Positions 1 to 17,200 of a stretch of 31,278 bases of DNA are shown in pieces. The DNA comes from a virus: the IMG/VR virus record IMGVR_UViG_3300030098_005059, positions 1-31,278 of that record. One strand, written 5' to 3'. Under the pieces are notes generated by a model. The model was given only the letters and a program-made list of their open reading frames with translations, had not been told where the DNA came from and did no database searches. Within the stretch, counting starts at the first letter, position 1, and each line of letters begins with the position of its first letter. The translations under genes were made by a program, and so were the position numbers.

Positions 1-640
1 CCTTAGGCATATTGAATTTGCGATATAGTCCCGCAATTCTTGTAGCCATGTTATCTCTATTGCCATGTCTAACTCCTGTCCGTAACGCCTCTGCAATGTC
101 GTCAGATGTTCCTGCGACATGATCATACGCTTCTTGCTCCGCCTTCTTCCTGTTCCATAAAACTTCTGGCGGGTCTACCCATTCGAGTAGTTCAGATTTT
201 CTTCCGAACCTGTAGGACTTGCCGTTTATTATGCTCGGTGGAGCAACGACATAACCTCCATCATTCCTGATGTCTACGTGTTCCAGAAAACCTGCACCCT
301 GTTTCAGTACATCACTGTACTTATACCAGTAGTGATATCCGTTAGGACTATGTACCGCAGTAGTTGGAGTAGGGGGTTGTATACCCGCACTCCTCATTGC
401 GTCTACTCCTGCCGAACCATCTACATCGAGTACAGTGATTCCTGAAATCTTGCCCGTAACTATCCCAACGTTTGCGTTAGGTGTCTCGGCCCAGTATTCT
501 TTTACGTCTCCGACTGTAAGTTTGTTTGTTTGTAACTCTTTCCAAGACGTCAGTAATGGTCTCTTGTCATCGGGGCGTAGAGGAATAACAGATAAGCCTT
601 GATTGATATACTCAATCGCCGCATCTAATATTGCGCTCAT
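1..640 (-). CDS. Bifunctional DNA primase/polymerase (PrimPol), N-terminal part, runs off the window
   Basis: Reading leftward from ATG at 640-638 there is an open frame of 213 codons that leaves the window without a stop. The residues fit the archaeo-eukaryotic primase (AEP) PrimPol domain: an N-terminal GLSVIPLRPDDKRPL segment (about 15-29), the metal-binding DxD pair in VLDVDG (D72, D74), HSPNGYHYWYK with the nucleotide-binding His (H103), and VDIRNDGGYVVAPPS with the third acidic residue (D123). A GVRHGNRDNMATRIAGLYR stretch (189-207) looks like the start of a primase C-terminal domain. A helicase domain may follow outside the window but is not seen. The leader GGGGAG lies 6 nt before the ATG. 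The gene sits 3 nt after the putative recombination gene, so primer synthesis or DNA polymerisation in phage replication is the likely role. Confidence 0.9.
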   Translation of the reverse strand, partial: MSAILDAAIEYINQGLSVIPLRPDDKRPLLTSWKELQTNKLTVGDVKEYWAETPNANVGIVTGKISGITVLDVDGSAGVDAMRSAGIQPPTPTTAVHSPNGYHYWYKYSDVLKQGAGFLEHVDIRNDGGYVVAPPSIINGKSYRFGRKSELLEWVDPPEVLWNRKKAEQEAYDHVAGTSDDIAEALRTGVRHGNRDNMATRIAGLYRKFNMPK

Positions 641-643
641 GTA

Positions 644-1540
644 TTACTCCCCGAATGTGCTTATAATTTTTTCCAGTTGTACTACCGAGTAATCTCGTAA
701 CTCCTGATCGAAGTCGTTCCCGAGTTTATCTTTGAGTACAGTGCGCCAAGCGCTTTTGTTTTGTTCAGCCGTCAGCATGGTTTCGTTAGCGTCTTTCTGC
801 ACCTGCTTTGTCAAGTCCAGATACTCTTTACACGCTTGTTTCCAATCGGGCATAGAAAAGTCAGGGTGCTCGGCCACGTAATGTATGTACGAAAGAGGCG
901 CCTGCTTTAACGTAGTCCCTTTGTGCTTACCGAAATTAAATTCCGTCTCGTGTAATGAGGCACTGTCAGAGGCGATAGGTTTAAGCTGTTCTTTCGGTGT
1001 GTATTTTTTTGCTTGTGGCTTTGCGTCGAAGGTATTCTCTGTACCAAAGACCTCTTCTGCGGGTGTTGGTTGTAGCCCTGCCTCTATAGCTACGTGAGAA
1101 TAACCTACCCTGTAGGCCTTTCCTACTGCTCTTGTTTCTGCCATCGACATGATTGCGTATTCATCTTGGTTACGCCACATCTTTTCAAGGTTAGAACAGA
1201 GCGCTATCCCACGTCCATGCAGTATGTTTCTGCCGTCAATCGATCTCAACACCACCGACGCAATGTATTTTATTTCTTCGTCAGTCTGTGTCTCTTCTAC
1301 CCTATGTACGTCCTCAACTAATGGCTTCACGTTAAGCATTGCACCTAGACGATTCCACCATTCTACTTTCGGATACTGTTTCCCGTGTATCCCTTGAACA
1401 TACTTGTCGTTCATGTACTTGCTCATTGCTTGGGCAAGTTCTTTTGCGTCTACGGGTTCTATGTCGGCAGGTTTACCTGCTTTTGTAATCGCTTCCATAG
1501 TTTCGTCGTACACATTAGAAATGTCATTTATTTCTTCCAT
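644..1540 (-). CDS. Putative ssDNA-annealing/recombination protein with C-terminal FGKHKG domain
   Basis: 298 residues. The central region has YPKVEWWNRLGAMLNV (57-71), then MSMAETRAVGKAYRVGY (131-147) and AIEAGLQPTPAEEV (151-164). This order is typical of phage proteins resembling single-strand annealing or ssDNA-binding recombination factors. After a basic linker comes FNFGKHKGTTLKQAPLSYIHYV (201-222), the signature opening of DUF3820/ExoX-like C-terminal domains. The C-terminal tail (about 250-298) is helical and charged. The gene overlaps its upstream neighbour by 13 nt and has a GGAGAA leader before the ATG. Next to PrimPol, a role at replication forks or in recombination is plausible. 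The annealing assignment is an inference from motif shape, not a demonstrated homology. Confidence 0.62.
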   Translation of the reverse strand: MEEINDISNVYDETMEAITKAGKPADIEPVDAKELAQAMSKYMNDKYVQGIHGKQYPKVEWWNRLGAMLNVKPLVEDVHRVEETQTDEEIKYIASVVLRSIDGRNILHGRGIALCSNLEKMWRNQDEYAIMSMAETRAVGKAYRVGYSHVAIEAGLQPTPAEEVFGTENTFDAKPQAKKYTPKEQLKPIASDSASLHETEFNFGKHKGTTLKQAPLSYIHYVAEHPDFSMPDWKQACKEYLDLTKQVQKDANETMLTAEQNKSAWRTVLKDKLGNDFDQELRDYSVVQLEKIISTFGE

Positions 1541-1980
1541 GTTATTTTATTCTCCACTTGTGTGCTCATTGCAGAAGTCAATGCTTTCGCAAGCCTTCCG
1601 CCTTGTTTGATTAAGTTATTCAACTTGGTCTTACTGTACTTATTTCTCGGTGGTTGTGGCTTGTTCTCAAGTTGCTTTATCTGCTCCTCGCTCCAGCCAC
1701 CAACTTCCATTAGTACCCCGTGTACTTGATCTTCATACCAATAGGATACTTCCTTATTGACGATCAAACATTTATCTGTGTCCCTGCGTTGAACCGACAG
1801 TTCCTCAGATACACCACGCAAGATTTTTTCTATCTCACGTAGCCCATCTCTGTGTAGTATGTATTGTTTGTAATATCTACTACCCAGTTCGACGAGTTGC
1901 TCAAGGCTCTGCTCGTCAGGGGTGAAGGTTATGATTTCTCCCGTTACCTTATCTGTAAATTCTATTTTACCAGAATCCAT
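1528..1980 (-). CDS. Hypothetical protein, 150 aa
   Basis: No family recognised. The N-terminus KIEFTDKVTGEIITFTPDEQ looks like a short beta-hairpin. The middle is helical and charged (QLVELGSRYYKQYILHRDGLREIEKILRG, about 28-56), and the C-terminus is basic (RNKYSKTKLNNLIKQGGRLAKAL). A strong GAGGAG leader precedes the ATG at 1980. Its last 13 nt overlap the start of the putative recombination gene, so the two are probably translationally coupled. A replication accessory role is possible from position only. Confidence 0.75.
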   Translation of the reverse strand: MDSGKIEFTDKVTGEIITFTPDEQSLEQLVELGSRYYKQYILHRDGLREIEKILRGVSEELSVQRRDTDKCLIVNKEVSYWYEDQVHGVLMEVGGWSEEQIKQLENKPQPPRNKYSKTKLNNLIKQGGRLAKALTSAMSTQVENKITWKK

Positions 1981-2009
1981 GTGAATTATCTCCTCTTTCT
2001 TGTGTGAAT

Positions 2010-2324
2010 TTATTCATCTTTTATACAATCGCTAATGTCTATTTCGTGGTCATAACAATCTGATACAAGTTGTTCCGTAGTCATCCCTTCGTCTTCTAAG
2101 TTCTCTCTTACTATGTCTTCAACGCATGGTGTACCATACTCTAAACTACATATTTGTATCCTATCTATTTTCTCTGAACATGAGAGGTCAACAAGTTTTT
2201 TCATGTTGTCAGCCACCCAGTTATCTATTGCATAGCAAACGTATTCGGGTGAGTAGTCAGCAGACCACCATCCAGAATCCTCTACCATCTTTGCTATCAC
2301 CTTTCCTCTATCGTATATACTCAT
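2010..2324 (-). CDS. Hypothetical acidic protein, 104 aa
   Basis: No family recognised. The protein is acidic, with EDSGWWSADYSPEYVCYAIDNWVADNMKKL (15-44) and an Asp/Glu-rich C-terminus (DCYDHEIDISDCIKDE). It has five cysteines, but they are scattered and do not form a clear zinc motif. The ATG at 2324 follows AAAGGAGAACAACTA, a good Shine-Dalgarno leader. The start shares one nucleotide with the stop codon of the AT-rich gene upstream. Confidence 0.72.
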   Translation of the reverse strand: MSIYDRGKVIAKMVEDSGWWSADYSPEYVCYAIDNWVADNMKKLVDLSCSEKIDRIQICSLEYGTPCVEDIVRENLEDEGMTTEQLVSDCYDHEIDISDCIKDE

Positions 2325-2710
2325 TAGTTGTTCTCCTTTACTAATTCTTCATACTTTAATTTTTCAAATTCTTTTATATCTTCTTTACTAATAGATTTTT
2401 TCAAGAATTTTTTATGTTTTATTCCTAATGCTTTTCCTTTTAAGTTTGTAATTTTTCCATACAAAACATCGTCATAATCTATTTTTCTTTTATTCGTTTG
2501 ACTTCCTTCTATCATGTTTTGAATTAAAAATAGTTTAGATGTTATAGGAACACTTGCGTTAAATTTTCGATTCGATGAATATTTCCATGTATCCCTATAT
2601 AACTTTTCTTCTTTTTGTATATCTCTATACAATGAAGGTATTAAGTCATCGCTATCAGGTAATTTACCAAATAACTTATTTATTAATTTTTCCTGTTTAG
2701 ATGTAATCAT
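2324..2710 (-). CDS. AT-rich hypothetical protein, 128 aa, probably recently acquired
   Basis: No family recognised. The protein is lysine-rich (KKFLKKSISKEDIKEFEKLKYEELVKENN at the C-terminus), with a helical N-terminus (SKQEKLINKLFGKL). Its base composition stands out: codons are dominated by A and T with long A/T runs, clearly poorer in G+C than the genes on either side. It keeps the operon style, with a GGGAG leader before the ATG at 2710 and a 1-nt overlap with the next gene. This looks like a recent insertion ('moron') into the early operon. Real-gene status is supported by leader, spacing and length; function is unknown. Confidence 0.7.
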   Translation of the reverse strand: MITSKQEKLINKLFGKLPDSDDLIPSLYRDIQKEEKLYRDTWKYSSNRKFNASVPITSKLFLIQNMIEGSQTNKRKIDYDDVLYGKITNLKGKALGIKHKKFLKKSISKEDIKEFEKLKYEELVKENN

Positions 2711-2728
2711 CTTTTAATTTCTCCCTAT

Positions 2729-3136
2729 TTACTCTTTATGCGCATTTGCGTATAGTTTTTTAGGTGCACTATCAGGAAAGTAAAAGAACAGTGCGCTACA
2801 TAGCCACCCTTTTCTTTGGGCGTTCTTACTTTCATACCATGCCCCGTTACCTTCTTCGTACAGAAGAGTCAACTCATCTGTTTCTGCCCAACTATCTCCC
2901 ATAGTCGGAAACCATTCCTCAGAGAACACAAGCATTGCTTTTGTCTCGTTGTTGTTCCCAATAGCATGGTCAATTATTTCTGGCATACCTGCAACAAAGG
3001 GTTCGTCTCTTAATCCGAACCTGTCGTCAGTAAACATCCAATTTATAGTGCCTTTCGGCCTGTACAAATGTAAGATGTGTAGCGAATTGTTATGTTCTAG
3101 GTCTTCGCCAATCCCTAGATGAATGTGTTTATTCAA
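2729..3136 (-). CDS. Conserved hypothetical protein, DUF6717-like, 135 aa
   Basis: The segment WMFTDDRFGLRDEPFVAGMPEIIDHAIG (about 33-60), followed by YEEGNGAWYESKNAQRKGWLCSALFFYFPDSAPKKLYA, resembles a small uncharacterised family I recall as DUF6717 (pattern FDD..vGL..EPFV.G...iID and GWLC.ALf.YF...P..lY). No activity is known. The start codon is read as TTG at 3136-3134: AAAGGAGAAACCAA stands directly in front of it, and no ATG lies in frame near the start. It is one of three genes in this arm that appear to start with TTG. Confidence 0.75.
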   Translation of the reverse strand: MNKHIHLGIGEDLEHNNSLHILHLYRPKGTINWMFTDDRFGLRDEPFVAGMPEIIDHAIGNNNETKAMLVFSEEWFPTMGDSWAETDELTLLYEEGNGAWYESKNAQRKGWLCSALFFYFPDSAPKKLYANAHKE

Positions 3137-3151
3137 TTGGTTTCTCCTTTC

Positions 3152-3373
3152 CTACATAGGAAATTCTTTGTCTCTTTGTGTTAATTTTTTAACCGATATT
3201 CTAAAAAACGATGGGTTTTTTGTATGTCCCCATTGTTCTTGAACATATTTATACCCCTGATCTAATGCGTCCCATGATGACATCGCCTTGACCTGATGAT
3301 CTACTGATGCAAGTTGCGTGCCATTCTCTGAGCCGACATCTATTTTCAGGGAATAAGAATCCTTATCCATCAT
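3152..3373 (-). CDS. Hypothetical protein, 73 aa
   Basis: No family recognised. The pattern YSLKIDVGSENGTQLASVDHQVKAMSSWDALDQGYKYVQEQWG suggests a small beta-alpha domain. The C-terminus is basic (FFRISVKKLTQRDKEF). The ATG at 3373 overlaps the upstream stop codon as ATGA. A second ATG follows immediately and the leader GGGAG can serve either, so the start is uncertain by one codon. Confidence 0.65.
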   Translation of the reverse strand: MMDKDSYSLKIDVGSENGTQLASVDHQVKAMSSWDALDQGYKYVQEQWGHTKNPSFFRISVKKLTQRDKEFPM

Positions 3374-3699
3374 ATGTTTAGTCTCCCTTGTCTGTTATTA
3401 CATGAGCATGTTCTACAATGCCCTCTCGTTATTCTTGGTGTCTCTCGTACCTGCTTGAATTGATAGACACTTTCCTTTGTTCTATCGTCTCTCCATGAGT
3501 CGATCTCAAAGTATTCTCTTAGGTCGTGTATTCTTGATGCCACTCGCCTTGACCCCGACTTCCTTTCTAGTTCTCTCCTATGCACAGGGGCACAGGTATC
3601 TCCGAAGCCAAGATAGTTTTCTGTTAGAGCCTCCAGAATTATACACGCTTGGCCCCCGAATCTTTCTTTGTCTTCGGGGGTGAGCATATTGTTACTCAT
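3370..3699 (-). CDS. Winged-helix-like DNA-binding protein with C-terminal Cys cluster, 109 aa
   Basis: The segment QACIILEALTENYLGF (18-33), then VHRRELERKSGSRRVASRIHDLREYFEIDSW (39-69), fits the helix-turn-helix plus wing pattern of small phage winged-helix proteins, with the RVASRIHDLR recognition-helix region and a following strand. The C-terminus has HCRTCSC (CxxCxC preceded by His), possibly a metal site. No other domain is present. It overlaps the next gene by ATGA and has a weak GAGAG leader. A regulator of phage or host transcription is plausible; the target is unknown. Confidence 0.6.
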   Translation of the reverse strand: MSNNMLTPEDKERFGGQACIILEALTENYLGFGDTCAPVHRRELERKSGSRRVASRIHDLREYFEIDSWRDDRTKESVYQFKQVRETPRITRGHCRTCSCNNRQGRLNI

Positions 3700-3989
3700 T
3701 TGTTACTCTCTTTCTTTGCTTTAGCCGTTTTTAATTCGTCTTGTTCCCGCACTAACGACCTTAGAAGAGCAATCCTATCCATTTCGCTTTGCGTATTACT
3801 CACCACCAATTGTAGTTTTTCTAGTATGTACGTCAGATTAGGGACAAAGCATAAATTCCTATCAACTGCTTGGTTGTCAATGTAATCTTGTAACGTATCT
3901 TTGTAAGGTCGGCTCATAGGCCATTCTATAAGGTGGTCTATCTCCGCTTTTAGTTCCTTGAATCGTTTAGTTATTTCTGAATTTTTCAT
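3696..3989 (-). CDS. Hypothetical helical protein, 97 aa
   Basis: No family recognised. The protein is mostly helical and charged: EITKRFKELKAEIDHLIEW (4-22) and the C-terminal QSEMDRIALLRSLVREQDELKTAKAKKESNK could form coiled coils. The start ATG at 3989 has AAGGAG seven nucleotides upstream, and its stop overlaps the winged-helix gene start as ATGA. The coupling suggests the two are made together, and a partner role is conceivable. Confidence 0.7.
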   Translation of the reverse strand: MKNSEITKRFKELKAEIDHLIEWPMSRPYKDTLQDYIDNQAVDRNLCFVPNLTYILEKLQLVVSNTQSEMDRIALLRSLVREQDELKTAKAKKESNK

Positions 3990-4004
3990 ATTGTCTCCTT
4001 GATG

Positions 4005-4613
4005 TTAATCTATTCTTCCACCCGCACTCGCTTCTATGTTATGAGAGTTAAGAACTCTTGCGAACTCATTGGCCCATGCCATGTTTATCTCGTAACTCTG
4101 TATAAGTGGTGAGTCTTGAGAATGTTTAGGGCTTGCTGATATCGCAACACCTCTTGTTCTTCTAACACCTGCGTCATAATGCGGATACGCTCTGTAATGT
4201 TCCTTGGCAAATTTTGCTTCGGGTTTTCTTGCGTTCGGTAGATGTACCCATGCAAAGCCACATACTCCACCTTCCACAAAGTATTCCTTCTCCACAGGTG
4301 AGTTGTCATCAAGAGTGTTCTTATGTTCCCGAACTATCATCGGTTCGGGCGTACATTGTAGAGCACTTATGTTTGCCTTCTCTTCTGCTTCTGCGAATAT
4401 CTTCTGTAGAGTTTGGGTATGACTTGCCTTACCCGATACCTCTTCACGTTTTTCTTTACGCTCAACCTTATCTTCATACCTAAACATGTTGATAAATTCT
4501 GAACGTTGTTCTGGTGATAGCATAGCCATGAGTTCACGCTTACTCTTGCCTACATAATCTACACCTAGTTTTTCTGCTAGTAATTTTCGCATTACTAATC
4601 TTCTTTTGGCCAT
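4005..4613 (-). CDS. Conserved phage protein of unknown function, 202 aa
   Basis: The C-terminal half matches a recurrent phage pattern: VEGGVCGFAWVHLPNARKPEAKFAKEH (112-138), then YDAGVRRTRGVAISAS and a final EINMAWANEFARVLNSHNIEASAGGRID. Similar proteins (GFAWV..., ...YA.AFA.VL...GI.AYAGSRMD) occur in many phages without known function. The N-terminal half is basic and helical (RRLVMRKLLAEKLGVDYVGKSKRELMAML). The leader AAGGAG lies 8 nt before the ATG at 4613. The gene start overlaps the 3' end of a 39-residue gene by 19 nt. Confidence 0.8.
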   Translation of the reverse strand: MAKRRLVMRKLLAEKLGVDYVGKSKRELMAMLSPEQRSEFINMFRYEDKVERKEKREEVSGKASHTQTLQKIFAEAEEKANISALQCTPEPMIVREHKNTLDDNSPVEKEYFVEGGVCGFAWVHLPNARKPEAKFAKEHYRAYPHYDAGVRRTRGVAISASPKHSQDSPLIQSYEINMAWANEFARVLNSHNIEASAGGRID

Positions 4614-4714
4614 TTGCTTGACTCCTTTATCACTGATGCTTGTGACTTGAATATATCTTTTATGTGATTCACAGTCTTGTCATCCGTGTCTTGTTTGTTT
4701 TCGCTTTTCGGCAT
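4595..4714 (-). CDS. Small hypothetical protein, 39 aa
   Basis: ATG at 4714-4712, stop TAG at 4597-4595. The short product (MPKSENKQDTDDKTVNHIKD at the N-terminus) is hydrophilic and probably disordered at first, then helical. The main support is an unusually strong Shine-Dalgarno sequence, TAAGGAGGACACC, directly before the ATG. The frame also fills what would otherwise be a 110-nt gap in a tightly packed operon. Its 3' end overlaps the next gene by 19 nt and contains that gene's ribosome-binding site. Function unknown. Confidence 0.6.
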   Translation of the reverse strand: MPKSENKQDTDDKTVNHIKDIFKSQASVIKESSKWPKED

Positions 4715-4724
4715 GGTGTCCTCC

Positions 4725-5108
4725 TTATGCCTTTAGTGATTCTTTAAACGCTTCGTCGTTAGCTTCTTTGATTGCACCCTTCATGTCCTCAACCGATGGT
4801 GTTTCTTGTTCGGGGTATCGCATAAACTTACGTTCAACTATGTTGAAGTACTCATCAATCACATACACTCCATTGTCCCCGTTGTCCGTATCTAGTCGGT
4901 CTATTGGCCCTACGCCTACACTCAAAGTGCCACCGAAGAAGTTTCCGATGATCTGTACGAGCCGTGCTGTTCCGTAATCTTCTGCGGTTCTCACGTCGTA
5001 CTCTTTCGCTACATCTAGGAACGCTTGAACGCTATTACGCCCGCCGTTCCAATGAAGGTATATTCCTATACCTGTATCCTGCATTTCTAATACTGCTCTG
5101 TTACCCAT
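4725..5108 (-). CDS. Conserved hypothetical protein of the MGNRAV...YLHWNGG type, 127 aa
   Basis: The frame is open to an ATG at 5147, but the internal ATG at 5108 is chosen. It is preceded by CAGGAGAAAAACA, and the protein then begins MGNRAVLEMQDTGIGIYLHWNGG, the usual start of a widespread uncharacterised family. The later parts NSVQAFLDVAKEYDVRT and YGTARLVQIIGNFFGG also fit that family, in which a helix follows the HWNGG motif. The chosen start overlaps the upstream gene by 8 nt, as elsewhere in the operon. Function is unknown. Confidence 0.78.
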   Translation of the reverse strand: MGNRAVLEMQDTGIGIYLHWNGGRNSVQAFLDVAKEYDVRTAEDYGTARLVQIIGNFFGGTLSVGVGPIDRLDTDNGDNGVYVIDEYFNIVERKFMRYPEQETPSVEDMKGAIKEANDEAFKESLKA

Positions 5109-5310
5109 TGTTTTTCTCCTGTTCTGAATCTTCTTCGGGTACATCAAACGAAAACGTATACGTTATGTAGTCGTATTCGTAAGGTGCAATTAGTCTTTGT
5201 CCTGTTTTATGCCATCGTACAGGGCAGGCCTGTAGCCATGTTTCAAACTCTTCAGGTATGTTATCAGTCCATTCTTCAGTCCATTCTTCTCTACTAATCA
5301 TGTAGTCCAT
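5101..5310 (-). CDS. Hypothetical acidic protein, 69 aa; first gene after promoter P2
   Basis: No family recognised. Short acidic protein with a Trp-rich N-terminal segment (EEWTEEWTDNIPEEFETWLQACPVRWHK) and an aromatic strand region (YEYDYITYTFSFDV). The leader GAAGGAGGAAATCT before the ATG at 5310 is one of the strongest in the window. This is the first gene downstream of the 5.4-kb promoter with its 5' hairpin, so it is probably well expressed early. Confidence 0.7.
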   Translation of the reverse strand: MDYMISREEWTEEWTDNIPEEFETWLQACPVRWHKTGQRLIAPYEYDYITYTFSFDVPEEDSEQEKNNG

Positions 5311-5350
5311 AGATTTCCTCCTTCTATGTTATTTTTTTTTACAAATTGTT

Positions 5351-5369
5351 AATCTTTATAAATAAGATT
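5351..5369 (-). promoter_or_regulatory. 5'-terminal mRNA stem-loop of the P2 transcript
   Basis: On the minus strand, AATCTT, a 7-nt loop (ATTTATA) and AAGATT form a 6-bp stem. Its first base lies about 2 nt after the predicted transcription start. A hairpin occupies the same place after promoter P1, with changed stem bases that still pair. Such 5' stem-loops are known (for example in ompA mRNA) to protect transcripts from decay; that role here is inference. Confidence 0.5.
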
Positions 5370-5406
5370 GTGCCAAGATTGTACTAAATTATTTTACATT
5401 TGTCAA
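5368..5406 (-). promoter_or_regulatory. Leftward sigma70 promoter P2 with TTGGCACAA box
   Basis: On the minus strand: -35 TTGACA (5406-5401), a 17-bp spacer, -10 TACAAT (5383-5378). This is five of six matches at -10 and six of six at -35. One base further lies TTGGCACAA (5376-5368), overlapping the predicted start (about A5371). The same elements with the same spacing recur at 8539-8577. P2 reads into the 5310 gene and the rest of the left arm. TTGGCACAA at +1 could be an operator or part of the initial transcript. Confidence 0.8.
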
Positions 5407-5409
5407 ATT

Positions 5410-5601
5410 TCAGTGTGAATCAATCTCAAATTCTGCAACATCATATTTCTCTGCATCTGAATGGTGTTTTGCACCTAATTCGTATGCGTGTGTCAGCATA
5501 GCTTGAAGTTCTAATTTTTGTTCTAGCGTATAGGCCCATGTACTATCGTGTACTAACTCGTCTATCATGCTACCTATCGATATGTAATACTTATACTTCA
5601 T
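5410..5601 (-). CDS. Hypothetical protein, 63 aa
   Basis: No family recognised. Composition KYKYYISIGSMIDELVHDSTWAYTLEQKLELQAMLTHAYELGAKHH suggests two helices with a conserved-looking Tyr/Ala face. The leader AAAGGAGAATAGCG before the ATG at 5601 is one of five nearly identical leaders in this arm. The gene ends just upstream of promoter P2, so it is the last gene of its transcription block unless P1 transcripts read through. It overlaps the upstream gene by 11 nt. Confidence 0.7.
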   Translation of the reverse strand: MKYKYYISIGSMIDELVHDSTWAYTLEQKLELQAMLTHAYELGAKHHSDAEKYDVAEFEIDSH

Positions 5602-5812
5602 CGCTATTCTCCTTTGTTGAACATTCTAGTGTAGTTGCACCACATTCTGTGCAAACTTCCATGTCGCAACATTCATCGCCATGTTTTTCTAGTTCTTCAT
5701 CGGGCATCTCTTTCAGTTCGTAGTACAAAGGTCTTGTACTAGGATGTTTTGTTATACAATCGTATATGACTGCACATTGACTTTGGTGATAGAATCCAAA
5801 AAAGTTATCCAT
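5591..5812 (-). CDS. Small Cys-rich, possible zinc-binding protein, 73 aa
   Basis: No family recognised. The C-terminal half holds DECCDMEVCTECGATTLECS (46-65): the two CxxC-like pairs (CCDMEVCTEC) plus a further Cys suggest a metal-binding knuckle. The N-terminus (MDNFFGFYHQSQCAVIYDCI) is aromatic and Cys-containing. Leader AAGGAGAATAGCG precedes ATG-GAT-AAC, one of the repeated leaders. It overlaps both neighbours, by 8 and 11 nt. Confidence 0.7.
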   Translation of the reverse strand: MDNFFGFYHQSQCAVIYDCITKHPSTRPLYYELKEMPDEELEKHGDECCDMEVCTECGATTLECSTKENSDEV

Positions 5813-5975
5813 CGCTATTCTCCTTATGTATTTCTACTGCGTTAGTGCAATACAGAGTATCTTCATCTTCTGATAGCACTGTTACTGTTTCAGTTTCGTT
5901 TGGATAATGTCCGTTAGCCTGCTCCATTGGTAAGCCTTCGGTGTTCCAAGTGATTGTTAATTTCTTTCCGATCAT
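5805..5975 (-). CDS. Small hypothetical protein, 56 aa
   Basis: ATG at 5975-5973, stop TAA at 5807-5805. The product starts MIGKKLTITWNTEGLPMEQA and continues with NETETVTVLSEDEDTLYC, a beta-rich pattern. Support comes from an ATGA overlap with the stop of the upstream gene, a GGGAG leader 8 nt before the ATG, and an 8-nt overlap with the next gene. The leader of that next gene (AAGGAGAATAGCG) is embedded in its last codons. The frame fills a 160-nt gap in an otherwise continuous operon. Function unknown. Confidence 0.72.
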   Translation of the reverse strand: MIGKKLTITWNTEGLPMEQANGHYPNETETVTVLSEDEDTLYCTNAVEIHKENSDG

Positions 5976-6190
5976 AAATTTCTCCCGTGAATGAAAGCAT
6001 TTTGTCGTGCTTTACGATACTCTTCTAGTGTTGAGTATCCTAGTCTGTCTTTTTCTTTGTGCTCTATCCTAAGTCTTTGAGCACGTTTATTACGCCATTT
6101 GCGTCTAGCTTCTGCCGTTGCGTTTCTAGGGGGTTTATTGCATTTACCCCCTGTACTTGCAAAGAGAAGTCCTATCTCCATATTTGTCAT
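5972..6190 (-). CDS. Basic hypothetical protein, 72 aa
   Basis: No family recognised. Very basic and helical: NATAEARRKWRNKRAQRLRIEHKEKDRLGYSTLEEYRKARQNAF (23-66), suggesting nucleic-acid binding. The N-terminus (EIGLLFASTGGKCNKPP) is short and hydrophobic. The ribosome-binding sequence (AAGAGACAATAAAC) is weak compared with the neighbours. It starts 2 nt after the upstream stop, which suggests translational coupling. Confidence 0.65.
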   Translation of the reverse strand: MTNMEIGLLFASTGGKCNKPPRNATAEARRKWRNKRAQRLRIEHKEKDRLGYSTLEEYRKARQNAFIHGRNL

Positions 6191-6192
6191 GT

Positions 6193-6465
6193 TTATTGTC
6201 TCTTTTTCGTTGGTATGCCGTTATCTTCTAGGAACATCACCACCCATTCATACGCTTGTCTATATGTTCTGAAGTTTGCTTTCTCTCCTAGTAATCTTCT
6301 GTACATATATTCTGCGTCTTTCACGGGTCTAGAACGCCTATGAGCCTTGATTCCGTGCATAGCTAACTGTAATTCTGATCGCAGGGTTATAAACTGAACC
6401 AAAGTCCTTTTTACAGGGTCGGTCATGTCTATTAAAGTGCCTACGTCTTGTGTTTCGTTATTCAA
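6193..6465 (-). CDS. Hypothetical protein, 90 aa, TTG start
   Basis: No family recognised. Helical and basic: DPVKRTLVQFITLRSELQLAMHGIKAHRRSR and DAEYMYRRLLGEKANFRTYRQAYEWVVMFLEDNG. The start is read as TTG at 6465-6463 because the repeated leader AAAGGAGAATAACG sits directly before it. The first codons TTG-AAT-AAC also mimic the ATG-GAT-AAC starts of neighbours with the same leader. An alternative ATG at codon 14 has no leader. Confidence 0.65.
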   Translation of the reverse strand: MNNETQDVGTLIDMTDPVKRTLVQFITLRSELQLAMHGIKAHRRSRPVKDAEYMYRRLLGEKANFRTYRQAYEWVVMFLEDNGIPTKKRQ

Positions 6466-6467
6466 CG

Positions 6468-6707
6468 TTATTCTCCTTTGCTATTTCGTTCAGGAATATG
6501 TATTACTAATTCGTCAATATCTTCTTCAGTCAGCACAGAGTCCCGTTTAGCATCTTCATATTCATCGTTTATCTCTTCTTCAGTCATCACGTCTAATTCT
6601 TGAAAGTATTTAGCACGTAGTATTTCAAGTAATTTCTCTGCTGGAACATGTTCATAATTCCAGACATAGATTTTTAGTAATCTATCTATCTTGTTTTGTT
6701 TATCCAA
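6468..6707 (-). CDS. Hypothetical acidic helical protein, 79 aa, TTG start
   Basis: No family recognised. Helical: KIDRLLKIYVWNYEHVPAEKLLEILRAKYF, then a strongly acidic segment (DVMTEEEINDEYEDAKRDSVLTEEDIDELV). The start is TTG at 6707-6705, with AAGGAGAGAATAACG directly upstream; the codons TTG-GAT-AAA continue the shared start pattern. It overlaps the next gene upstream by 8 nt. An acidic, DNA-mimic-like character is possible but not distinctive. Confidence 0.66.
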   Translation of the reverse strand: MDKQNKIDRLLKIYVWNYEHVPAEKLLEILRAKYFQELDVMTEEEINDEYEDAKRDSVLTEEDIDELVIHIPERNSKGE

Positions 6708-6891
6708 CGTTATTCTCTCCTTGTGTTATGTGTCCGTTGTCTATTAGCATTTGTGCTGTTCGCCCAAATCGCCCCTGTAGTGTCCAAGCTAATCCTGTAT
6801 CGACAAGATGTTGCCACGCTTCAAGGAATTGTTCATCGCTTTCGGGTGTTTCAAAACCTTCAGCGATACCTACTGCCGTGTAATTATCCAT
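6700..6891 (-). CDS. Conserved small phage protein (DTGLAW.LQG.FGRTA family), 63 aa
   Basis: The stretch EAWQHLVDTGLAWTLQGRFGRTAQMLIDNGHI (24-55) matches a short family seen in many phages of actinobacteria, proteobacteria and marine hosts, usually 50-70 residues and uncharacterised. The function of the family is not known to me. Leader AAGGAGAATAACG before ATG-GAT-AAT is one of the five shared leaders. It overlaps both neighbours by 8 nt. Confidence 0.78.
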   Translation of the reverse strand: MDNYTAVGIAEGFETPESDEQFLEAWQHLVDTGLAWTLQGRFGRTAQMLIDNGHITQGENNVG

Positions 6892-7273
6892 CGTTATTCT
6901 CCTTGTTTAGATCGTAGCATTTGCTACAAATCGCTAGTGTACAGTTAAGCTGGTGTAGATTTTCGTGTAGCATTTCAGATGGTGCAACAACACGAAATCT
7001 AAACTCGCTATTCTGATTCTTGTGTATCTCCCACACGTTTTCTAGTGTTCTTATTGCTCTTCCTACGTGTTTGCTCGTAGTTTGTGAGTAAAAATCCCCA
7101 CCATCTGCGGTGTAGTTACCGACTACCTTTTCTCTGTTCTCGTCAGTCATACCTATCACTAGGTTATAACTTTTGAGTAGGTTTCCATCTGTCGATAGTT
7201 TACCGCTCATATGTTGCATAGGTTCACCTTGAATCCAAGATTCTACTACGTCTTGATTAGTGCCACGTATCAT
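6884..7273 (-). CDS. Conserved hypothetical phage protein, 129 aa
   Basis: GKLSTDGNLLKSYNLVIGMTDENREKVVGNYTADGGDFYSQTTSKHVGRAI (24-74) follows a pattern I have seen in small phage and plasmid proteins (.gn..dG..LySYnl.Ig.......v..ytas...f.S.TTs.Hv). Those proteins are uncharacterised and probably beta-rich. The C-terminus adds CTLAICSKCYDL, a possible metal knuckle absent from the basic pattern. The start ATG at 7273 overlaps the stop of the upstream zinc-ribbon gene as ATGA. Confidence 0.72.
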   Translation of the reverse strand: MIRGTNQDVVESWIQGEPMQHMSGKLSTDGNLLKSYNLVIGMTDENREKVVGNYTADGGDFYSQTTSKHVGRAIRTLENVWEIHKNQNSEFRFRVVAPSEMLHENLHQLNCTLAICSKCYDLNKENNDG

Positions 7274-7437
7274 GTGTACATCTCTACCTTTCTATTTGTT
7301 TTACGATCACATCGATCGCAATTTTTATCGCTATTGTATGGAACATAGAGATTCCAAACTTTAGTATCTCTACACTCATAGCAATAGTATTTGATATCCT
7401 GCCCGCCATCGGGCAAGTCAAAGATTTCCATATACAT
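7270..7437 (-). CDS. Zinc-ribbon-like small protein, 55 aa
   Basis: The frame is open back to GTG at 7497, but that start has no leader. ATG at 7437 has AAAGGA about 9 nt upstream and is preferred; a second ATG two codons later is also possible. The product contains YYCYECRDTKVWNLYVPYNS and then NCDRCDRKTNRK: two CxxC pairs 23 residues apart, the layout of a zinc ribbon. No catalytic domain is present. A DNA- or RNA-binding or protein-interaction role is likely but unproven. Confidence 0.62.
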   Translation of the reverse strand: MYMEIFDLPDGGQDIKYYCYECRDTKVWNLYVPYNSDKNCDRCDRKTNRKVEMYT

Positions 7438-7552
7438 ATATGTGTATCCTTTGTATATCGTATTAGAAACTATTTGTTCCCAGACGCACCATTTCACGAG
7501 TGCGTTTCGTTATGCCCACATGGGACATATACTCATCGGTGAGATTTACTAA

Positions 7553-7891
7553 CTACGCATACTTACCGCCTATTCCAAGCGGTAGCTCCCGCCTTAATTT
7601 GTTTGTGTGTTCAGCGTATTTTGGTGCATATGCAGGATCAGTAACCTTGTTGAAAAATTCCTTACTCCATGTATCTGTATTAGCCCATAACAATGCACAT
7701 AGCATAGGCTGTTTAGGGCATGTGTGAACCATTGCATCACTATTCACGCAAGCGTAACATAAGCAAGAATGAGAATGGTACTCTTGCGTATATATCACAC
7801 CGCAACACCCATAAGTTTTTTGTTCGCTTGGGTATCTCTCATTATCTCCCCAAGTTGCATTTCCTTCTTCTGTGTCAAACGTGTATATCAT
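7553..7891 (-). CDS. Cys/His-rich hypothetical protein, 112 aa
   Basis: No family recognised. Residues 28-66 carry many potential metal ligands: YGCCGVIYTQEYHSHSCLCYACVNSD followed by HTCPKQPMLCALL, that is nine Cys and three His in about 40 residues. The rest, WANTDTWSKEFFNKVTDPAYAPKYAEHTNKLRRELPLG, looks helical. The leader AGGGAGTAAAC precedes the ATG at 7891. A 55-nt gap follows to the next gene's frame; nothing was recognised there. Confidence 0.68.
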   Translation of the reverse strand: MIYTFDTEEGNATWGDNERYPSEQKTYGCCGVIYTQEYHSHSCLCYACVNSDAMVHTCPKQPMLCALLWANTDTWSKEFFNKVTDPAYAPKYAEHTNKLRRELPLGIGGKYA

Positions 7892-7979
7892 GTTTACTCC
7901 CTATGTGTATCTTGACTGTTTCGACCTTGTTTTTGGTCATCATCAGTACCGCTCTAGCGATAGACAGTTTGGACATAGT

Positions 7980-8000
7980 GGGGGTGAAGTGATCACCCCC
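7980..8000. promoter_or_regulatory. GC-rich 8-bp hairpin between the first and second early genes
   Basis: GGGGGTGA, a 5-nt loop (AGTGA) and TCACCCCC form a perfect 8-bp stem in the 124-nt gap after the 8016-8489 gene. There is no T-run after it on either strand, so it is not a classical rho-independent terminator. Candidate roles are partial termination, mRNA processing or 3'-end protection of the first cistron. Confidence 0.55.
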
Positions 8001-8015
8001 GTATGTGTGCGGGCA

Positions 8016-8489
8016 TTATTTAGCTACTTTTTGCGCTCTCATGACGATAGTGTCAAGGCGTGCTACTTTGGTTTTTAGTTCCGCTATGTAACCTGTTTGT
8101 AGTTTGCGCCTTGTTTCAAGTTCGCTGATGCGTACTTCTTGCGCTTCTATGAGCTCTAGTAGTGCTTTCATCGTGAGTACAGGGGTTTTCTTGCCCTTTT
8201 TCACGTCTGCGCGCTCTTGCTTGTCAGTGTCCACGTGATCGCTGACCTTTTGCGCATAAGTCCCGTGTTTCATGGTCTTTTTTGCACTTTTGTCGCGTGC
8301 TTCAGGTAGTGCGCCTATCTCTTCCTTTACGACTTCCATCGCTCTCGCGTAACCCTTCGACTTCTTCGACTTTTTAGTCGGTTTTTTCTTTGGTGCTGTA
8401 CACCATGCACTTTGTACGTGCCAATTGTATCCCGATTCTTTCTTGAATTCTCGCATACAATCCCCACACCGATATGTTGGCCTAGCCAT
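8016..8489 (-). CDS. Zinc-finger, lysine-rich protein with coiled coil, 157 aa; first gene after promoter P1
   Basis: N-terminus TYRCGDCMREFKKESGYNWHVQSAWC has CxxC, then 12 residues to His and five to Cys (C8, C11, H24, C30), a C2HC finger like a C2H2 finger. A highly basic linker follows (KKKPTKKSKKSKG), then a C-terminal coiled coil (LLELIEAQEVRISELETRRKLQTGYIAELKTKVARLDTIV, 110-149). This layout suits a DNA-binding oligomer. It is the first gene downstream of P1, with a hairpin-containing gap after it, so it may be an early regulator. Leader AGGAG lies 9 nt before the ATG. The exact family is not recognised. Confidence 0.72.
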   Translation of the reverse strand: MARPTYRCGDCMREFKKESGYNWHVQSAWCTAPKKKPTKKSKKSKGYARAMEVVKEEIGALPEARDKSAKKTMKHGTYAQKVSDHVDTDKQERADVKKGKKTPVLTMKALLELIEAQEVRISELETRRKLQTGYIAELKTKVARLDTIVMRAQKVAK

Positions 8490-8520
8490 AATTTATCACT
8501 CCTATGATATTTATTTTTTG

Positions 8521-8540
8521 AACGCTTTATTTAAAACGTT
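8521..8540 (-). promoter_or_regulatory. 5'-terminal mRNA stem-loop of the P1 transcript
   Basis: On the minus strand AACG plus TTT pairs with AAA plus CGTT (one bulged G), with a 5-nt loop TAAAT. It starts about 2 nt after the predicted transcription start, as in P2. Stem positions 3 and 4 are C-G and G-C here but T-A and C-G in P2, so pairing is kept despite base changes. Confidence 0.5.
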
Positions 8541-8577
8541 GTGCCAACAGTCTATCAATATAAATACGATTTGTCAA
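8539..8577 (-). promoter_or_regulatory. Leftward sigma70 promoter P1 with TTGGCACAA box
   Basis: On the minus strand: -35 TTGACA (8577-8572), a 17-bp spacer, -10 TAGACT (8554-8549), then after one base TTGGCACAA (8547-8539). The 13-mer AAATTTGACAAAT around the -35 is identical in P2 at 5.4 kb, as are the 17-bp spacer and the position of the TTGGCACAA box. P1 reads into the zinc-finger gene. Predicted start is about A8542. Confidence 0.8.
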
Positions 8578-8731
8578 ATTTAAGTATAAAAACGTTGTGA
8601 ATTGAGTATAAAAAAATGTCCAAAAATTGTAGAATGTGAAAAAAAACTTTAAAAAAAAGTTAAAAAATGCTAAAATTGAGATCAAAATTGATCAAAAAAT
8701 AATAAATATTACACGGAAACAGGTGAAAAAA
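8578..8731. other. A-rich segment between the divergent arms
   Basis: On the plus strand this stretch is extremely A-rich, with several runs of 5-8 A. The small terminase frame can be extended through it to a GTG at 8636, giving a lysine/isoleucine-rich 32-residue extension. That extension has no ribosome-binding site and is probably non-coding. TATAAA occurs at 8585 and 8607, but no well-placed -35 was found, so no rightward promoter is claimed. The A-tracts may be bent DNA between the two transcription units. Confidence 0.45.
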
Positions 8732-9217
8732 ATGGGCAACAAATTAAAATTAAATTCTCGTATCAGTCAGGCAATTTGCACATCATTAAAAAACGGAAAT
8801 TATTTATCGACTTCTGCCCGCGCGGTCGGAATATCTGAAGCTTCGGTGCGGTCATGGATTGCACAAGGGAGCACGCCAAACGCTCCAAAAATTTTTAAGG
8901 ATTTTGTTGATGATGTCGAAAGAGCACAAGCAGAAGCGGAGTTAAGGAGTTTAAATGCGATTGCTACCTCTGACGATTGGCGCGCTCATGCGTGGATATT
9001 AGAACATGGTACGAATAAAGCACGTTATAAGAGCGATGATATAGCAACTCCGCAAGTTGTCGCGGTGAATACGTTAATCGAGTCGTTGAGATCAAGAGCA
9101 AGCGGACAAATAGAGCAAAATTCAACTCGCGCGACAAAGGAAAGCGCACGTAATAGTAGTATCGTGTATGTTAGTGGCGGTGAGGGGGATGAGGAAGGGT
9201 TGGATGAGGTGAGGTGA
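8732..9217 (+). CDS. terS: Terminase small subunit
   Basis: 161 residues from ATG at 8732, which has AGGTG 6 nt upstream; the frame extends to GTG 8636 but without a leader. SRISQAICTSLKNGNYLSTSARAVGISEASVRSWIAQGS (9-47) is the helix-turn-helix common to phage small terminases. It is followed by the helical FKDFVDDVERAQAEAELRSLNAI and then DDWRAHAWILEHGTNKARYK, the W.A..W.LE......Y pattern of these proteins. TerS recognises phage DNA, often near its own gene, and loads the large subunit. The C-terminus is low in complexity and acidic. It lies directly before terL, apart from a 262-nt gap rich in repeats. Confidence 0.85.
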   Translation: MGNKLKLNSRISQAICTSLKNGNYLSTSARAVGISEASVRSWIAQGSTPNAPKIFKDFVDDVERAQAEAELRSLNAIATSDDWRAHAWILEHGTNKARYKSDDIATPQVVAVNTLIESLRSRASGQIEQNSTRATKESARNSSIVYVSGGEGDEEGLDEVR

Positions 9218-9329
9218 GTGGAGAGGTGTTGGTGGTTGTGTTATGTTGTTAGAGGTAGGGGTATGCTTGGAGTTTATGTTATGTGTGTGTTGAAGGGGGT
9301 CATTCTAAATTTTAAACCCAAATAGAGGT

Positions 9330-9353
9330 GTTTCATGCAACGTTTCATGCAAC
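9330..9353. repeat. Two tandem 12-bp repeats GTTTCATGCAAC
   Basis: GTTTCATGCAAC occurs twice, back to back and without mismatch (9330-9341 and 9342-9353). The core GTTTCAT recurs in both arms of the inverted repeat at 9411-9443, and AGGTGTTTCAT is shared with the right arm in reverse complement. Repeated spaced cores of this kind are typical of protein-binding sites. Confidence 0.8.
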
Positions 9354-9410
9354 AGTATTAGCCATATTGTGTGTTCTTTATCTTGTGTATATATCTCACT
9401 AATGGTTATT

Positions 9411-9443
9411 GTTTCATATATACCCTTTAGGGGTATATGAAAC
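9411..9443. repeat. Inverted repeat GTTTCATATA...TATATGAAAC upstream of terL
   Basis: A perfect 10-bp stem (9411-9420 with 9434-9443) encloses TACCCTTTAGGGG, in which CCC-TTTA-GGG can form an inner stem. The repeat ends 37 nt before the terL start codon. It lacks a T-run, so a terminator is unlikely. It shares its GTTTCAT core with the tandem repeats 58-70 nt upstream, suggesting one DNA-binding protein recognises all four. Confidence 0.75.
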
Positions 9444-9479
9444 ACCTAAGAGGGAGAGTGTGAGAGGGAGAGGATTTAT

Positions 9480-10868
9480 GTGAAGGTATTGTTGAAATGT
9501 GATATTCTTATATTCATGTTAAAAGAAGATCGCAAACTCCTTTTGGAGAATATAGGTATATCTACATGGGAAGAGCAGGATGTGATTCTTGACCATGAGG
9601 CTAGGATAAAGCTGGTGGCTGGAGGTGAGCGTGCTGGGAAGAGTTTCTTGGGTGCTTTATATGTCATTGCTCATCTGGATGAGTATAATGAGGGAGATAT
9701 TCTTTGGTTGGTGGCTCGTGATTATGAGAGGACTAGAGCTGAATTTAGTTATCTGGTGGATATGTTTACCAAGCTGGGCTTTTTACTTAAGTCGAGTAAA
9801 CGGATAGACCCGGGAGAGATCGAGTTAGTGAACGGGGTAAAGATAAAAACAAAGTCGGCCCAAGATCACAGATCACTTGCGATGGAAGCGCCGGTAGGGA
9901 TAGTTGCATGTGAGGCGTCTCAGATAGATCATGAGGGTTTTTTAAGACTTAGAGGTCGTATCGCAGAGAAACGTGGGTGGTTATTTCTTGAGGGAACCTT
10001 TGAGGGTTCTGTCGGGTGGTATCCTTCTATGTGGGAAGCATGGCAGCCTTATCCTAATAACGAAGGGGCCAAATCTTTTTCACTCCCCTCTTGGACTAAC
10101 AGGCTAGTTTATCCTGACGGAAGATACGACGAAGAGATGACCGCCTTGGAAAACCTACACTCCGACGACTGGTTCGCAGAACGTATGGCAGGTAAACCAG
10201 CTCCTCCGAAAGGACTGGTACATCATATGTTCCGTAACGAGATTCATGTGAGAGGTGACGTAGAATATGTTCCCGGTGAACCTGTACATCTATGGGTAGA
10301 CCCCGGATATTCACAGGTAACCAAATCGGCATACGCCGTACAGGCGATACAAATTATAGATCAGCAGGTACGGGTATTCGATGAAGTCTTTGAAAGAGAG
10401 ATGACCACAGAGGATATCATAGAAATCTGTTCGACCAGACCTTGGTGGCGGGATGTGCAGTATGGAGTGATCGATATAGCAGCGAAGAACCTCGGAGAGA
10501 CCAGACCCTACGATGTATGGCTGCAAAAAGGTGGCGTTCACATGATGACAGAGAAAGTCGGAATTATGGACGGCATAGAAAGATTTAATACGTTTTTAAA
10601 ACCAGACCCCGTAAATAACATGCCGAAAATGCTTTTCAGCCCACGGGCAAAAGGTGTATTATCAGAATTAGGCGGTGGCCCAAATCCATTTGACGGACAG
10701 GTTCACGTGTATAAATGGGCAACCGACAGAGAAGGAAACGTCGTGGGAAGAACCCCCCGTGACGCTTTCAATCACGGCATAAAAGCTATAACATATGGAT
10801 TAGTACATAATTACGGATACTCCCGCAGCGAGGCTGCGAAGAGAGTTATCTCGATAAAAAGGTGGTAA
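9480..10868 (+). CDS. terL: Terminase large subunit
   Basis: 462 residues, GTG start at 9480 with AGAGGA upstream; an ATG 12 codons later has no leader. The N-terminal ATPase shows Walker A GGERAGKS (48-55), a Walker B-like PVGIVACEAS with catalytic E145, and a coupling motif LFLEGTF (168-174). The C-terminal RNase H-like nuclease shows LWVDPGYS (D274), YGVIDIAAKN (D332) and RDAFNHGIKAI (D428) as probable metal-binding acids. It pumps DNA into the prohead and cuts concatemers. In the Walker B the usual Asp before Glu is Cys. Base use changes abruptly inside the gene: T is about three times C at 9481-9600, but T and C are nearly equal at 10321-10440. Confidence 0.93.
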   Translation: MKVLLKCDILIFMLKEDRKLLLENIGISTWEEQDVILDHEARIKLVAGGERAGKSFLGALYVIAHLDEYNEGDILWLVARDYERTRAEFSYLVDMFTKLGFLLKSSKRIDPGEIELVNGVKIKTKSAQDHRSLAMEAPVGIVACEASQIDHEGFLRLRGRIAEKRGWLFLEGTFEGSVGWYPSMWEAWQPYPNNEGAKSFSLPSWTNRLVYPDGRYDEEMTALENLHSDDWFAERMAGKPAPPKGLVHHMFRNEIHVRGDVEYVPGEPVHLWVDPGYSQVTKSAYAVQAIQIIDQQVRVFDEVFEREMTTEDIIEICSTRPWWRDVQYGVIDIAAKNLGETRPYDVWLQKGGVHMMTEKVGIMDGIERFNTFLKPDPVNNMPKMLFSPRAKGVLSELGGGPNPFDGQVHVYKWATDREGNVVGRTPRDAFNHGIKAITYGLVHNYGYSRSEAAKRVISIKRW

Positions 10869-14227: not shown

Positions 14228-17200
14228 ATGGTAATGCCTCGTGATGGTTTTGCTAGTTGGTTAAGTAGACAACCGACTCCGGCGTATAATATTCGTCCTA
14301 CAAATGCCCCAACTAATCGCAGAGATTTACAGGGTATAAGAGGTATGATGCAACAGCCATCTTTATCTCAACCGCAATTAACCTTGCCGACTCCTTCTGT
14401 CTTACCGCAAACTCCAACGGGAGCAATCGGACAAGGGACAAACCTCTCATGGTATAGACCCTTCAGGCGAGGAACTCCACAACCTATGCCCCCAACCCCT
14501 ATGCCTGTAGAAGAACCTCCTCCTCCTCCTGACCCTGATGCGTATTCATTATTAAATAATCAATTAGTCTCTGAAGGAAAATTTCAGTATTTACCTAAAA
14601 AAATTGTTACCGGAGGATGGGATGACACAAGACAGGAGGTACAAACTATTGACAATCCATTAGGTACAGATTTAGGCCCGTTAGATAGGAACCATTACGA
14701 CACATTTAAAACATACGATACAGGGCAAAAAAGTGGCTTCGGAGTAGGGGATCAAAAATCCCTTGCGATGGAACAGATGTTCGGAGACCCTGCCCTTGCA
14801 GATGAAATAGCAAAAGAGTCGCAAGCAAGAAGAATTGAACAGGGCCTTGCCCCAACTGTATATTTTGAAGACGGCGTGAAATTTATGGCCTTTATGAACC
14901 TTATGAATAATAAACGGAATCATCAGAAGGTAAAACAGACAGTTGCTTCTCAAAAGGCTTTAAGAACAATGGGAGAAGCGTTGACCGCAACACCTCTTCC
15001 TGAAGAGATAAAGATTGATCTCTCAAGAGCTGGAGGGCCAACACTGGAAGTTGGAGGTGAAGGTACAGGTATAGATGACGCTATATACGGATGGACTCAA
15101 AGAAACCTGACTGCACTTGATATTGGTTTAGCCATAACTACGGCGGCAGTTGGATACACCACAGGAGGTGCAGGCATCTCTGGTGTGGCTCCCGCTTGGG
15201 CTTGGAGACAGGGATTAAGAACTGCTGCAAAATGGGGTAGCAAGGAACTGTTAACCGGTATGGCAGTAAACTCTTACTTTCATGACGGATTAGCAGAAGC
15301 GATAGAATCGAAGTATGAATTAGGTGCTGTTGGAGGAGCGGTGACAATGGCTGCTACAAAAGGAAGAAGCGCATATACAAGAGGTCTTTTAGGAGCTGGT
15401 GTAGCTTCGGCTGGTTACGCGCTTGGAAGTCTAGCGGATGCAAAAGGTCAGGACTGGACTGGTGATGTCGCAGGAAGTTTGCTTGCAGGTATAGGTACAT
15501 GGAAATATAGCGGAAACGCCGGAACTCTTGCTCATAACATGGCACATACAGGAAGTATTCCTAAGGGTTTCAGGTCAACTTTTCAGAGTAAAAATGCCCC
15601 TTTGATGAGCTCAGAGATCGCTAAAGCAAAAGAAGGGTATAGGTCGATAGCTGATTCCGCAGATAAATTAGAACTACAATTAAAAAATATGTCGCCGGAG
15701 CAGGCAAAAGAAGCAAGGAAAACAATAAAAGATTATAGAAAGATAGCAAAAGAATATAAGAATATCGACTCTGGATTTACTTACGGACAGTTGTCTGACC
15801 TTGAAAAGAAAGCGACTGACGAAATGAGAGAGGCTTTATCTGCTCGGTTATTGGAATTTGCCGATGTCTCGGAGGTAAGAAGTAGCACTGCATGGGCCTT
15901 TAATACACTAGCCCAGATATACCGATCAGACCCAGAGAAAATGGCTAAACTTGCTACGAGAGAAGCAGATGCCACAAAACCAAGTATCTGGGATATTAGC
16001 GGAATACCGAAAGAACCAAGGGGTAACAGAGAGAAGTGGATGGACTTATACGATCTTCCTAAAACAGACCGAGAATCTCTTGAAGCACTTCACCCACGAG
16101 ACGTAAATGGTAACCTTGTACCCCCAAGACTTTCTGATGCAGCGACAAATATTAACGACTCTGTTGCAAATGCCAGACATGTAAAGGAATCTATGGGACG
16201 GGCAAACTCTGTGGCAGGACGTACCAAGATAAGTGATAACGGAAGAATAGTAGACCCCGACTTTGAAGATGTACATTCTGCTGCTTTTGATCGATTGAAG
16301 AATCGGAAGACTCCGGTGACGGAGCAGATATTTAGACCTGAAAGCCCTGTAGATGAAGTTATCGCAGACCAAGCAGCTAGAACAATTAAAATAAGAAACC
16401 ATATAGATATAGCAAGGGTTGCGTTTCAAATGTTCGGTGCAAATATGAAGACCGCCAAAGCCGTTGCAAGAATAGTGCATGATATAGACGATTGGCTTGG
16501 AGGAACAGTTAACCTCTCAAGTGATGATTATTTGCAATCAAGGATTAAAGGTGCTATTGAAGCGGTTTCCCGACCGGGAACACGCACATTAGATGATTGG
16601 GAAATAGACAGTATGGTGGTAGAAGAGATAAAAAGGGACTGGCCGGGTTTGATAAAAGAGGTAGACCCAGCACGTGGGATAACCTTAGAAGTAGCTCAGG
16701 CCTCGGCGAGGAAGGCTCTAGCCAGTAGGCGGGGGCAGAAAATAAAGCAAAGGATTATAAATGAAGGCAAGGCTAAACGGGACTACGAAGAAAGGGCTAT
16801 AGAAGTTTCTGAGGTTATCGACGGAAAGGCTACAGGAAAAGTATTAAAGTTAACTGATTATTCTGATAAATCCACAGGAGTAATGGCGTGGGTTGACAGG
16901 ATGGACGACGCCGCTAGAATTATATATGTATTAAAAGAGGCAGACCCTAAGACTTTGGTTCACGAGTTAGGTCATGCGTGGGAAAAAACTATAAAGGTTG
17001 CGGCCAGAGGAGACAGAAGATATCGGAACGGAGATCAATATAACAAATTAAGGGCTCTCGAAGAAGATATGTACAACAGTATCCTTGCAGGCACTAACGA
17101 ATCAAGGCTACAGGCCACAGTCGAAGAGATGGGGAACTGGAAGCCCGGCGCACCTTGGAATAACGCTATAAAGGAAGAGTTTGCCGAAAGAATTGGAGCG

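Follow-up and report, generated by a model that had tools for sequence, protein, structure and literature searches.

Does a phage build a hairpin into the very 5′ end of its early messages and, if so, is it the pairing or the sequence that is kept? The question is raised by IMG/VR record IMGVR_UViG_3300030098_005059, a stretch of 31,278 bases (referred to throughout as the window), in which two promoters, P1 and P2, are each followed at the predicted transcription start by an inverted repeat (Table 1). To judge by their sequence, P1 and P2 are probably strong promoters of the host sigma70 type serving a leftward gene cluster, the early timing of which is presumed. The answer that we tentatively favor, with slightly less than even confidence, is a 5′ hairpin on early mRNA in which pairing has been selected over sequence in several clades, most likely as a structural cap against decay. 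The main rivals are a DNA operator and antitermination of the type known from the put RNAs of HK022.

The predicted start was taken as 7 nucleotides (nt) after the −10 element. The predicted P1 RNA (ACAACGUUUUAAAUAAAGCGUU) begins with 2 unpaired bases followed by an 8-pair stem; the hairpin has an energy of −5.2 kcal/mol, with a z score of −3.7 (p 0.01) for +1 to +30 and of −4.5 for the 42-nt leader. The predicted P2 RNA (ACAAUCUUAUUUAUAAAGAUU) forms a 6-pair stem of −2.2 kcal/mol (p 0.084). Both inverted repeats are present where the preliminary description had placed them (8540–8521 and 5369–5351), and stem pairs 3 and 4 differ between them as it had said. Its main doubt, that the pairing might be due to chance, persists for P2 and is less likely to apply to P1: within the window alone, only the P1 hairpin is convincing and that of P2 is marginal. 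Its suggestion that structure is kept while sequence changes finds some support in the relatives, including the nearest P1; the two copies in the window are too few to prove covariation.

The promoters themselves agree with that description in coordinates and sequence, including the shared AAATTTGACAAAT, the spacer of 17 base pairs (bp) and TTGGCACAA one base after the −10. Both have near-consensus hexamers and lie upstream of leftward small genes, P1 at the junction of the leftward cluster with a rightward small-terminase-like gene and P2 in a 99-bp gap within the cluster. In a consensus scan of window positions 1–10000, P2 ranked best (11/12) and P1 joint second (10/12). Exact copies of AAATTTGACAAAT and TTGGCACAA occur in the window only at P1 and P2. 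The two promoters are identical in the −35 flanks (7/7) and the TTGGCACAA box (9/9), with 5/14 identities in the remaining spacer. This sharing, as computed, exceeds chance: a 9-mer is shared between random position pairs at a frequency of 4e-6, and of the 2063 pairings of promoter-like sites that the window offers, P1/P2 are alone in sharing one at equal offset after the −10. Shared boxes with a diverged spacer would fit constraint better than recent duplication. TTGGCACAA and the shared −35 flanks constitute a phage-specific promoter extension to which no use is assigned.

The related phages give no support to the TTGGCACAA box as a conserved element: beyond the two in the window, no promoter followed by the box was found. 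The box is absent from the nearest relatives (loci L003–L006), and a pattern search of IMG/VR gave 17 matches, none in a locus tied to the window by terminase or portal searches and most coding-like by eye. A sigma54-like reading of the box was also considered; a matching −12 element is absent by eye. The early promoters of T4, likewise strong and of the sigma70 type, carry extra consensus bases beyond the −35 and −10 comparable to AAATTTGACAAAT and TTGGCACAA, in other sequences than those of P1 and P2; the relevant passages of PMC2988021 do not mention a start-site hairpin. An 11-nt direct repeat, CACAACGTTTT, was also seen on the minus strand at 8599–8589 and 8543–8533, 56 bp apart, one copy lying upstream of the P1 −35 and the other at the P1 start.

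Related loci were gathered by a portal search, which gave 80, and by two terminase searches, which added more. A terminase search recovered L003–L006. L006 matches the window at 99.9% and starts at window position 9644, and therefore does not cover P1 or P2. The closest relative covering them, L005, and L003 encode terminase proteins 93% identical to that of the window, and at the place of P1 both have a promoter (TTGACA-17-TAAAGT) ahead of a gene 31% identical to the first early gene of the window. This promoter is without TTGGCACAA, yet a different hairpin stands at its start (in L005, −9.9 kcal/mol, z −4.6). No promoter was found in L005 at the place of P2.

Start hairpins recur further afield. 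In group A (L088–L101), as many as three leftward promoters (P1, P2 and P3) are present in well-covered genomes, and each of these bears its own start hairpin; further start hairpins were observed in L053/L057, L062/L063, L157/L161/L163 and L188/L197/L207. Among 27 hand-picked leaders, a list chosen from earlier scans mainly for hairpins, with a few lacking them, and thus describing geometry rather than providing an unbiased test, 19 had a fold with p ≤0.05 and a stem starting in the first four bases, mostly at +1 to +3. The stem thus lies a few bases from the predicted start, at +3 in the window's P1 and at +1 to +3 in most relatives that bear a hairpin.

The preference for this position was computed on promoter-like sites chosen by sequence consensus only (10/12 matches), with hairpins of −3 kcal/mol or better counted in 10-nt bins. 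The first set, from the window and its relatives, comprised 32 non-redundant sites on the minus strand, all of them upstream of the terminase gene. In the bin 0–9 nt after the −10, 13/32 sites (0.41) had a hairpin; the mean of the other bins was 0.09 and the same bin on the plus strand gave 0.10 (binomial 1.5e-6, or 7e-6 when the window's P1 is excluded). The sites are not fully independent, given the possible common origin of P1, P2 and P3 in group A, and some of them must be non-promoters that dilute the effect. Over the study as a whole, the promoter threshold varied between scans (10/12 or 9/12), as did the definition of a hairpin (Watson-Crick repeats, energy-scored stems or minimum-energy folds); several scans covered the same sequences, and p values are uncorrected for this. 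The start hairpin is supported in several clades and is not universal.

To ascertain whether the repeats act as RNA or as DNA, the changes within their stems are informative. At least one compensatory change on both sides of the stem was found in each of five homologous groups: C-G to U-A, A-U to G-C and A-U to C-G in P1 of group A, U-G to G-C in its P2, G-C to A-U in its P3, C-G to U-A in L161/L157 and, read by eye, C-G to A-U in L188/L207. The P1 stem of group A was aligned by hand, since the MAFFT alignment had shifted L099 and L101, and this alignment, being fitted to a stem, is biased towards it. When the 3′ arm was slid by 1–3 columns in the P2, P3 and L161/L157 groups, no both-side change was left and pairing fell to 0–63%. 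Near-palindromes at predicted starts, detected by Watson-Crick symmetry with mismatches of every kind permitted, contained 11 G-T and 2 A-C mismatches on the transcribed strand (one-sided sign test, 0.011). Because a DNA operator predicts equal numbers of the two, this asymmetry favors RNA.

A repressor of phage or host origin might nonetheless silence early transcription, with either the inverted repeats at the starts or the dyads TTGGCACAA and ATTTGACAAAT common to P1 and P2 as its DNA operators. Indeed, the dyads TTG-GCA-CAA on the start and ATTTG-A-CAAAT on the −35 are identical at P1 and P2, promoters of groups A and B have long dyads on the −35, and a perfect 15-bp palindrome, GGTTGTCCGACAACC, lies in the start region of L028 and L034. 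Against this, no stem sequence is common to the hairpins at the several promoters of a genome (P1, P2 and P3 of L101 all differ), the asymmetries are G-T and not A-C, and loop lengths are variable. These points make it less likely that the stems are operators; they do not bear on an operator role of TTGGCACAA. Taken together, the compensatory changes, the G-T asymmetry and the unshared stems within a genome appear to favor RNA over a DNA operator, which we consider unlikely overall.

The P1 RNA, and perhaps the P2 RNA, would present about 2 unpaired bases, a short stem-loop, an A-rich linker and then the Shine-Dalgarno sequence. As a cap, the hairpin would hide the 5′ end from 5′-end-dependent decay by the host, through RppH and RNase E or through RNase J, and the shielded early mRNAs would live longer. 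These enzymes need single-stranded 5′ ends, and the RppH of B. subtilis requires at least 2 unpaired 5′ bases and prefers three or more (PMC3997798). The predicted number is two at the window's P1 and none or one in most relatives. By the B. subtilis rule, the window, with two unpaired bases, would be a borderline case for protection.

Precedents for such protection are found in ompA and papA of E. coli and the aprE leader of B. subtilis, which, as cited in PMC3997798, have a stem-loop at the extreme 5′ end, preceded by few unpaired bases. Unlike in these cases, the phage hairpin occurs at up to three early promoters per genome and in several clades, and its stabilizing effect is one that we infer. 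The closest phage precedent would seem, by analogy, to be the leader hairpin of T4 gene 32, cited in PMC8948821 as stabilizing a phage mRNA. The T4 class, as it appears there, has a fixed CUUCGG loop, whereas loops and stems are varied in the present family and the hairpin begins at the predicted transcription start.

Several findings weigh against the structural cap. The P2 stem is weak and is missing from the minimum-energy fold of the longer leader, where another fold wins. Promoters without a start hairpin occur in L038, L051/L058 and L098. Covariation rests on 3–6 sequences per homologous group, and the letter-shuffle control was not beaten, with 49, 169 and 155 of 500 shuffles reaching the observed score for P2, P3 and L161/L157, respectively. 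The GGTTGTCCGACAACC palindrome of L028/L034 (also in L029 and L035) starts 2–3 nt after the −10 at the P1 start, which is too early for a +1 RNA hairpin, and is probably a DNA operator. Start hairpins had already been noticed in these genomes before the position test was designed, and the test was therefore not blind. Applied unchanged to a second, more distant set of 68 loci obtained with the L188 terminase, it gave 4/27 in the start bin, which is not significant. Three of these four hairpins belong to homologous copies of a single promoter and sit exactly at +1; among the three is L190, which is the L188 contig under another number, already included in the first set. The start sites, moreover, are predictions, and the route of decay would depend on the host.

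Some of these results would be expected if the hairpins of the window were chance pairing in AT-rich DNA beside two ordinary strong promoters, namely that the P2 repeat alone is not significant and absent from the minimum-energy fold, and that the second set of relatives as a whole shows no significant excess. The P1 hairpin, on the other hand, is significant by itself, L005/L003 have a different hairpin at this site, and the first set shows the position effect; chance is accordingly judged improbable.

The hairpin might also act on the polymerase. The most interesting rival to the structural cap is antitermination, because pairing in HK022 putL starts from the third base of the early transcript; the leader would then be a cis-acting RNA that binds RNA polymerase and allows it to read through terminators in the early cluster. 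putL lies just downstream of PL, and the put RNAs are ∼70 nt long with two stem-loops and a sequence common among them (PMC9378689). As with putL and putR, the present leaders would place a structured RNA at the beginning of phage early transcripts, or close to it, with transcription from promoters of the host polymerase. The position of putL, a second hairpin (GUGC...GCAC) after the first in the P1 and P2 leaders of group A, and the length of the early cluster in the window, ∼8 kb, are consistent with such a role. Here, though, stems vary where the put RNAs share sequence, and a single hairpin is present in the P3 leaders and in the window's P2. No credible match to Rfam was obtained with the window leaders and those of four relatives, the presence of put in Rfam itself not having been checked. 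Antitermination by the leader is considered improbable as well. Less probable still, to the point of being remote, is that the hairpins influence how RNA polymerase escapes the promoter or pauses early on, rather than acting on mRNA decay. Their span, from +1 to about +20, is one in which nascent RNA would fold while the polymerase leaves the promoter; no specific support for such an effect was found.

The structural cap could be generalized to a family-wide design in which every early mRNA starts, at +1, with a hairpin selected for its structure, built into the promoter and serving either decay protection or factor-free antitermination; this broader claim is doubtful. No description of family-wide phage use of such promoter-built hairpins was found in the open-access literature, the only literature covered, which is weak evidence of absence. 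In a host with fast message decay, the early mRNAs of a phage have to last; if the proposal is true, these phages would have been under selection for protection of the 5′ end, or for a signal that the RNA gives the polymerase.

Other features of the family were observed around these promoters. Near-perfect long dyads lie over the −35, for example TACTAATcGTCAAATagtatATTTGACtATTAGTA, upstream of P1/P2 in L101, L099 and L095 and of P1 in L053 and L057. They have a recurring C-T mismatch beside GTCAA, and their arms vary by promoter with Watson-Crick symmetry kept; P1 of L090/L091 gave no fit to the −35 dyad in the register tried. L062 and L063 are nearly identical around their P1 start hairpins, yet the L063 hairpin is close to the reverse complement of its L062 counterpart; the palindrome looks as though it had been flipped. 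Different promoters of L090–L101, L053 and L057 also resemble one another in the short leader linker that comes after the hairpin, which is approximately AAACAAGT or ACCAAGTC.

Table 1. Promoters, shared boxes, leader hairpins and first genes of the leftward cluster, in window coordinates
Feature	Position	Strand	Remarks
P1, sigma70-like promoter	8549..8577	−	−35 TTGACA 8577–8572, 17 bp, −10 TAGACT 8554–8549
P2, sigma70-like promoter	5378..5406	−	−35 TTGACA 5406–5401, 17 bp, −10 TACAAT 5383–5378
AAATTTGACAAAT block around P1 −35	8569..8581	−	includes 11-bp dyad ATTTGaCAAAT
AAATTTGACAAAT block around P2 −35	5398..5410	−	
TTGGCACAA box of P1	8539..8547	−	one base past −10; includes predicted start A8542
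TTGGCACAA box of P2	5368..5376	−	one base past −10; includes predicted start A5371
P1 5′-terminal hairpin AACGUUUU-AAAU-AAAGCGUU	8521..8540	−	8 pairs including one G-U, loop of 4; first pair at predicted +3
P2 inverted repeat AAUCUU-AUUUAUA-AAGAUU	5351..5369	−	6 pairs, loop of 7, predicted +3; weak
Second P1 leader hairpin UAUCAU-AGGA-GUGAUA	8494..8509	−	predicted fold; carries Shine-Dalgarno AGGAG of first early gene
First gene served by P1	8016..8489	−	157 amino acids, Cys/His zinc-finger-like start; L005 counterpart 31% identical
First gene served by P2	5101..5310	−	69 amino acids, function not assigned; L005 counterpart 56% identical

The leftward cluster, probably early, consists of ∼22 small genes from 8489 to 644 (about 8 kb). 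On the rightward side are a terminase gene (9480–10868) and portal-like, capsid-like and adaptor-like genes. The window DNA had no match among 50,697 cultured-phage records, and against cultured phages the terminase matched actinobacteriophages only, at 23%–29% identity; no cultured family member was found by either search, nor was a host found through prokaryote genomes. An N4-type virion RNA polymerase with hairpin promoters was considered and set aside, as a 2956-amino-acid protein of the window had no significant match in PHROGs, Pfam or PDB, although very distant homology could still exist. This protein is encoded on the plus strand at 14228–23098, between the portal-like and capsid-like genes, and has a HELGH zinc-peptidase-like motif.

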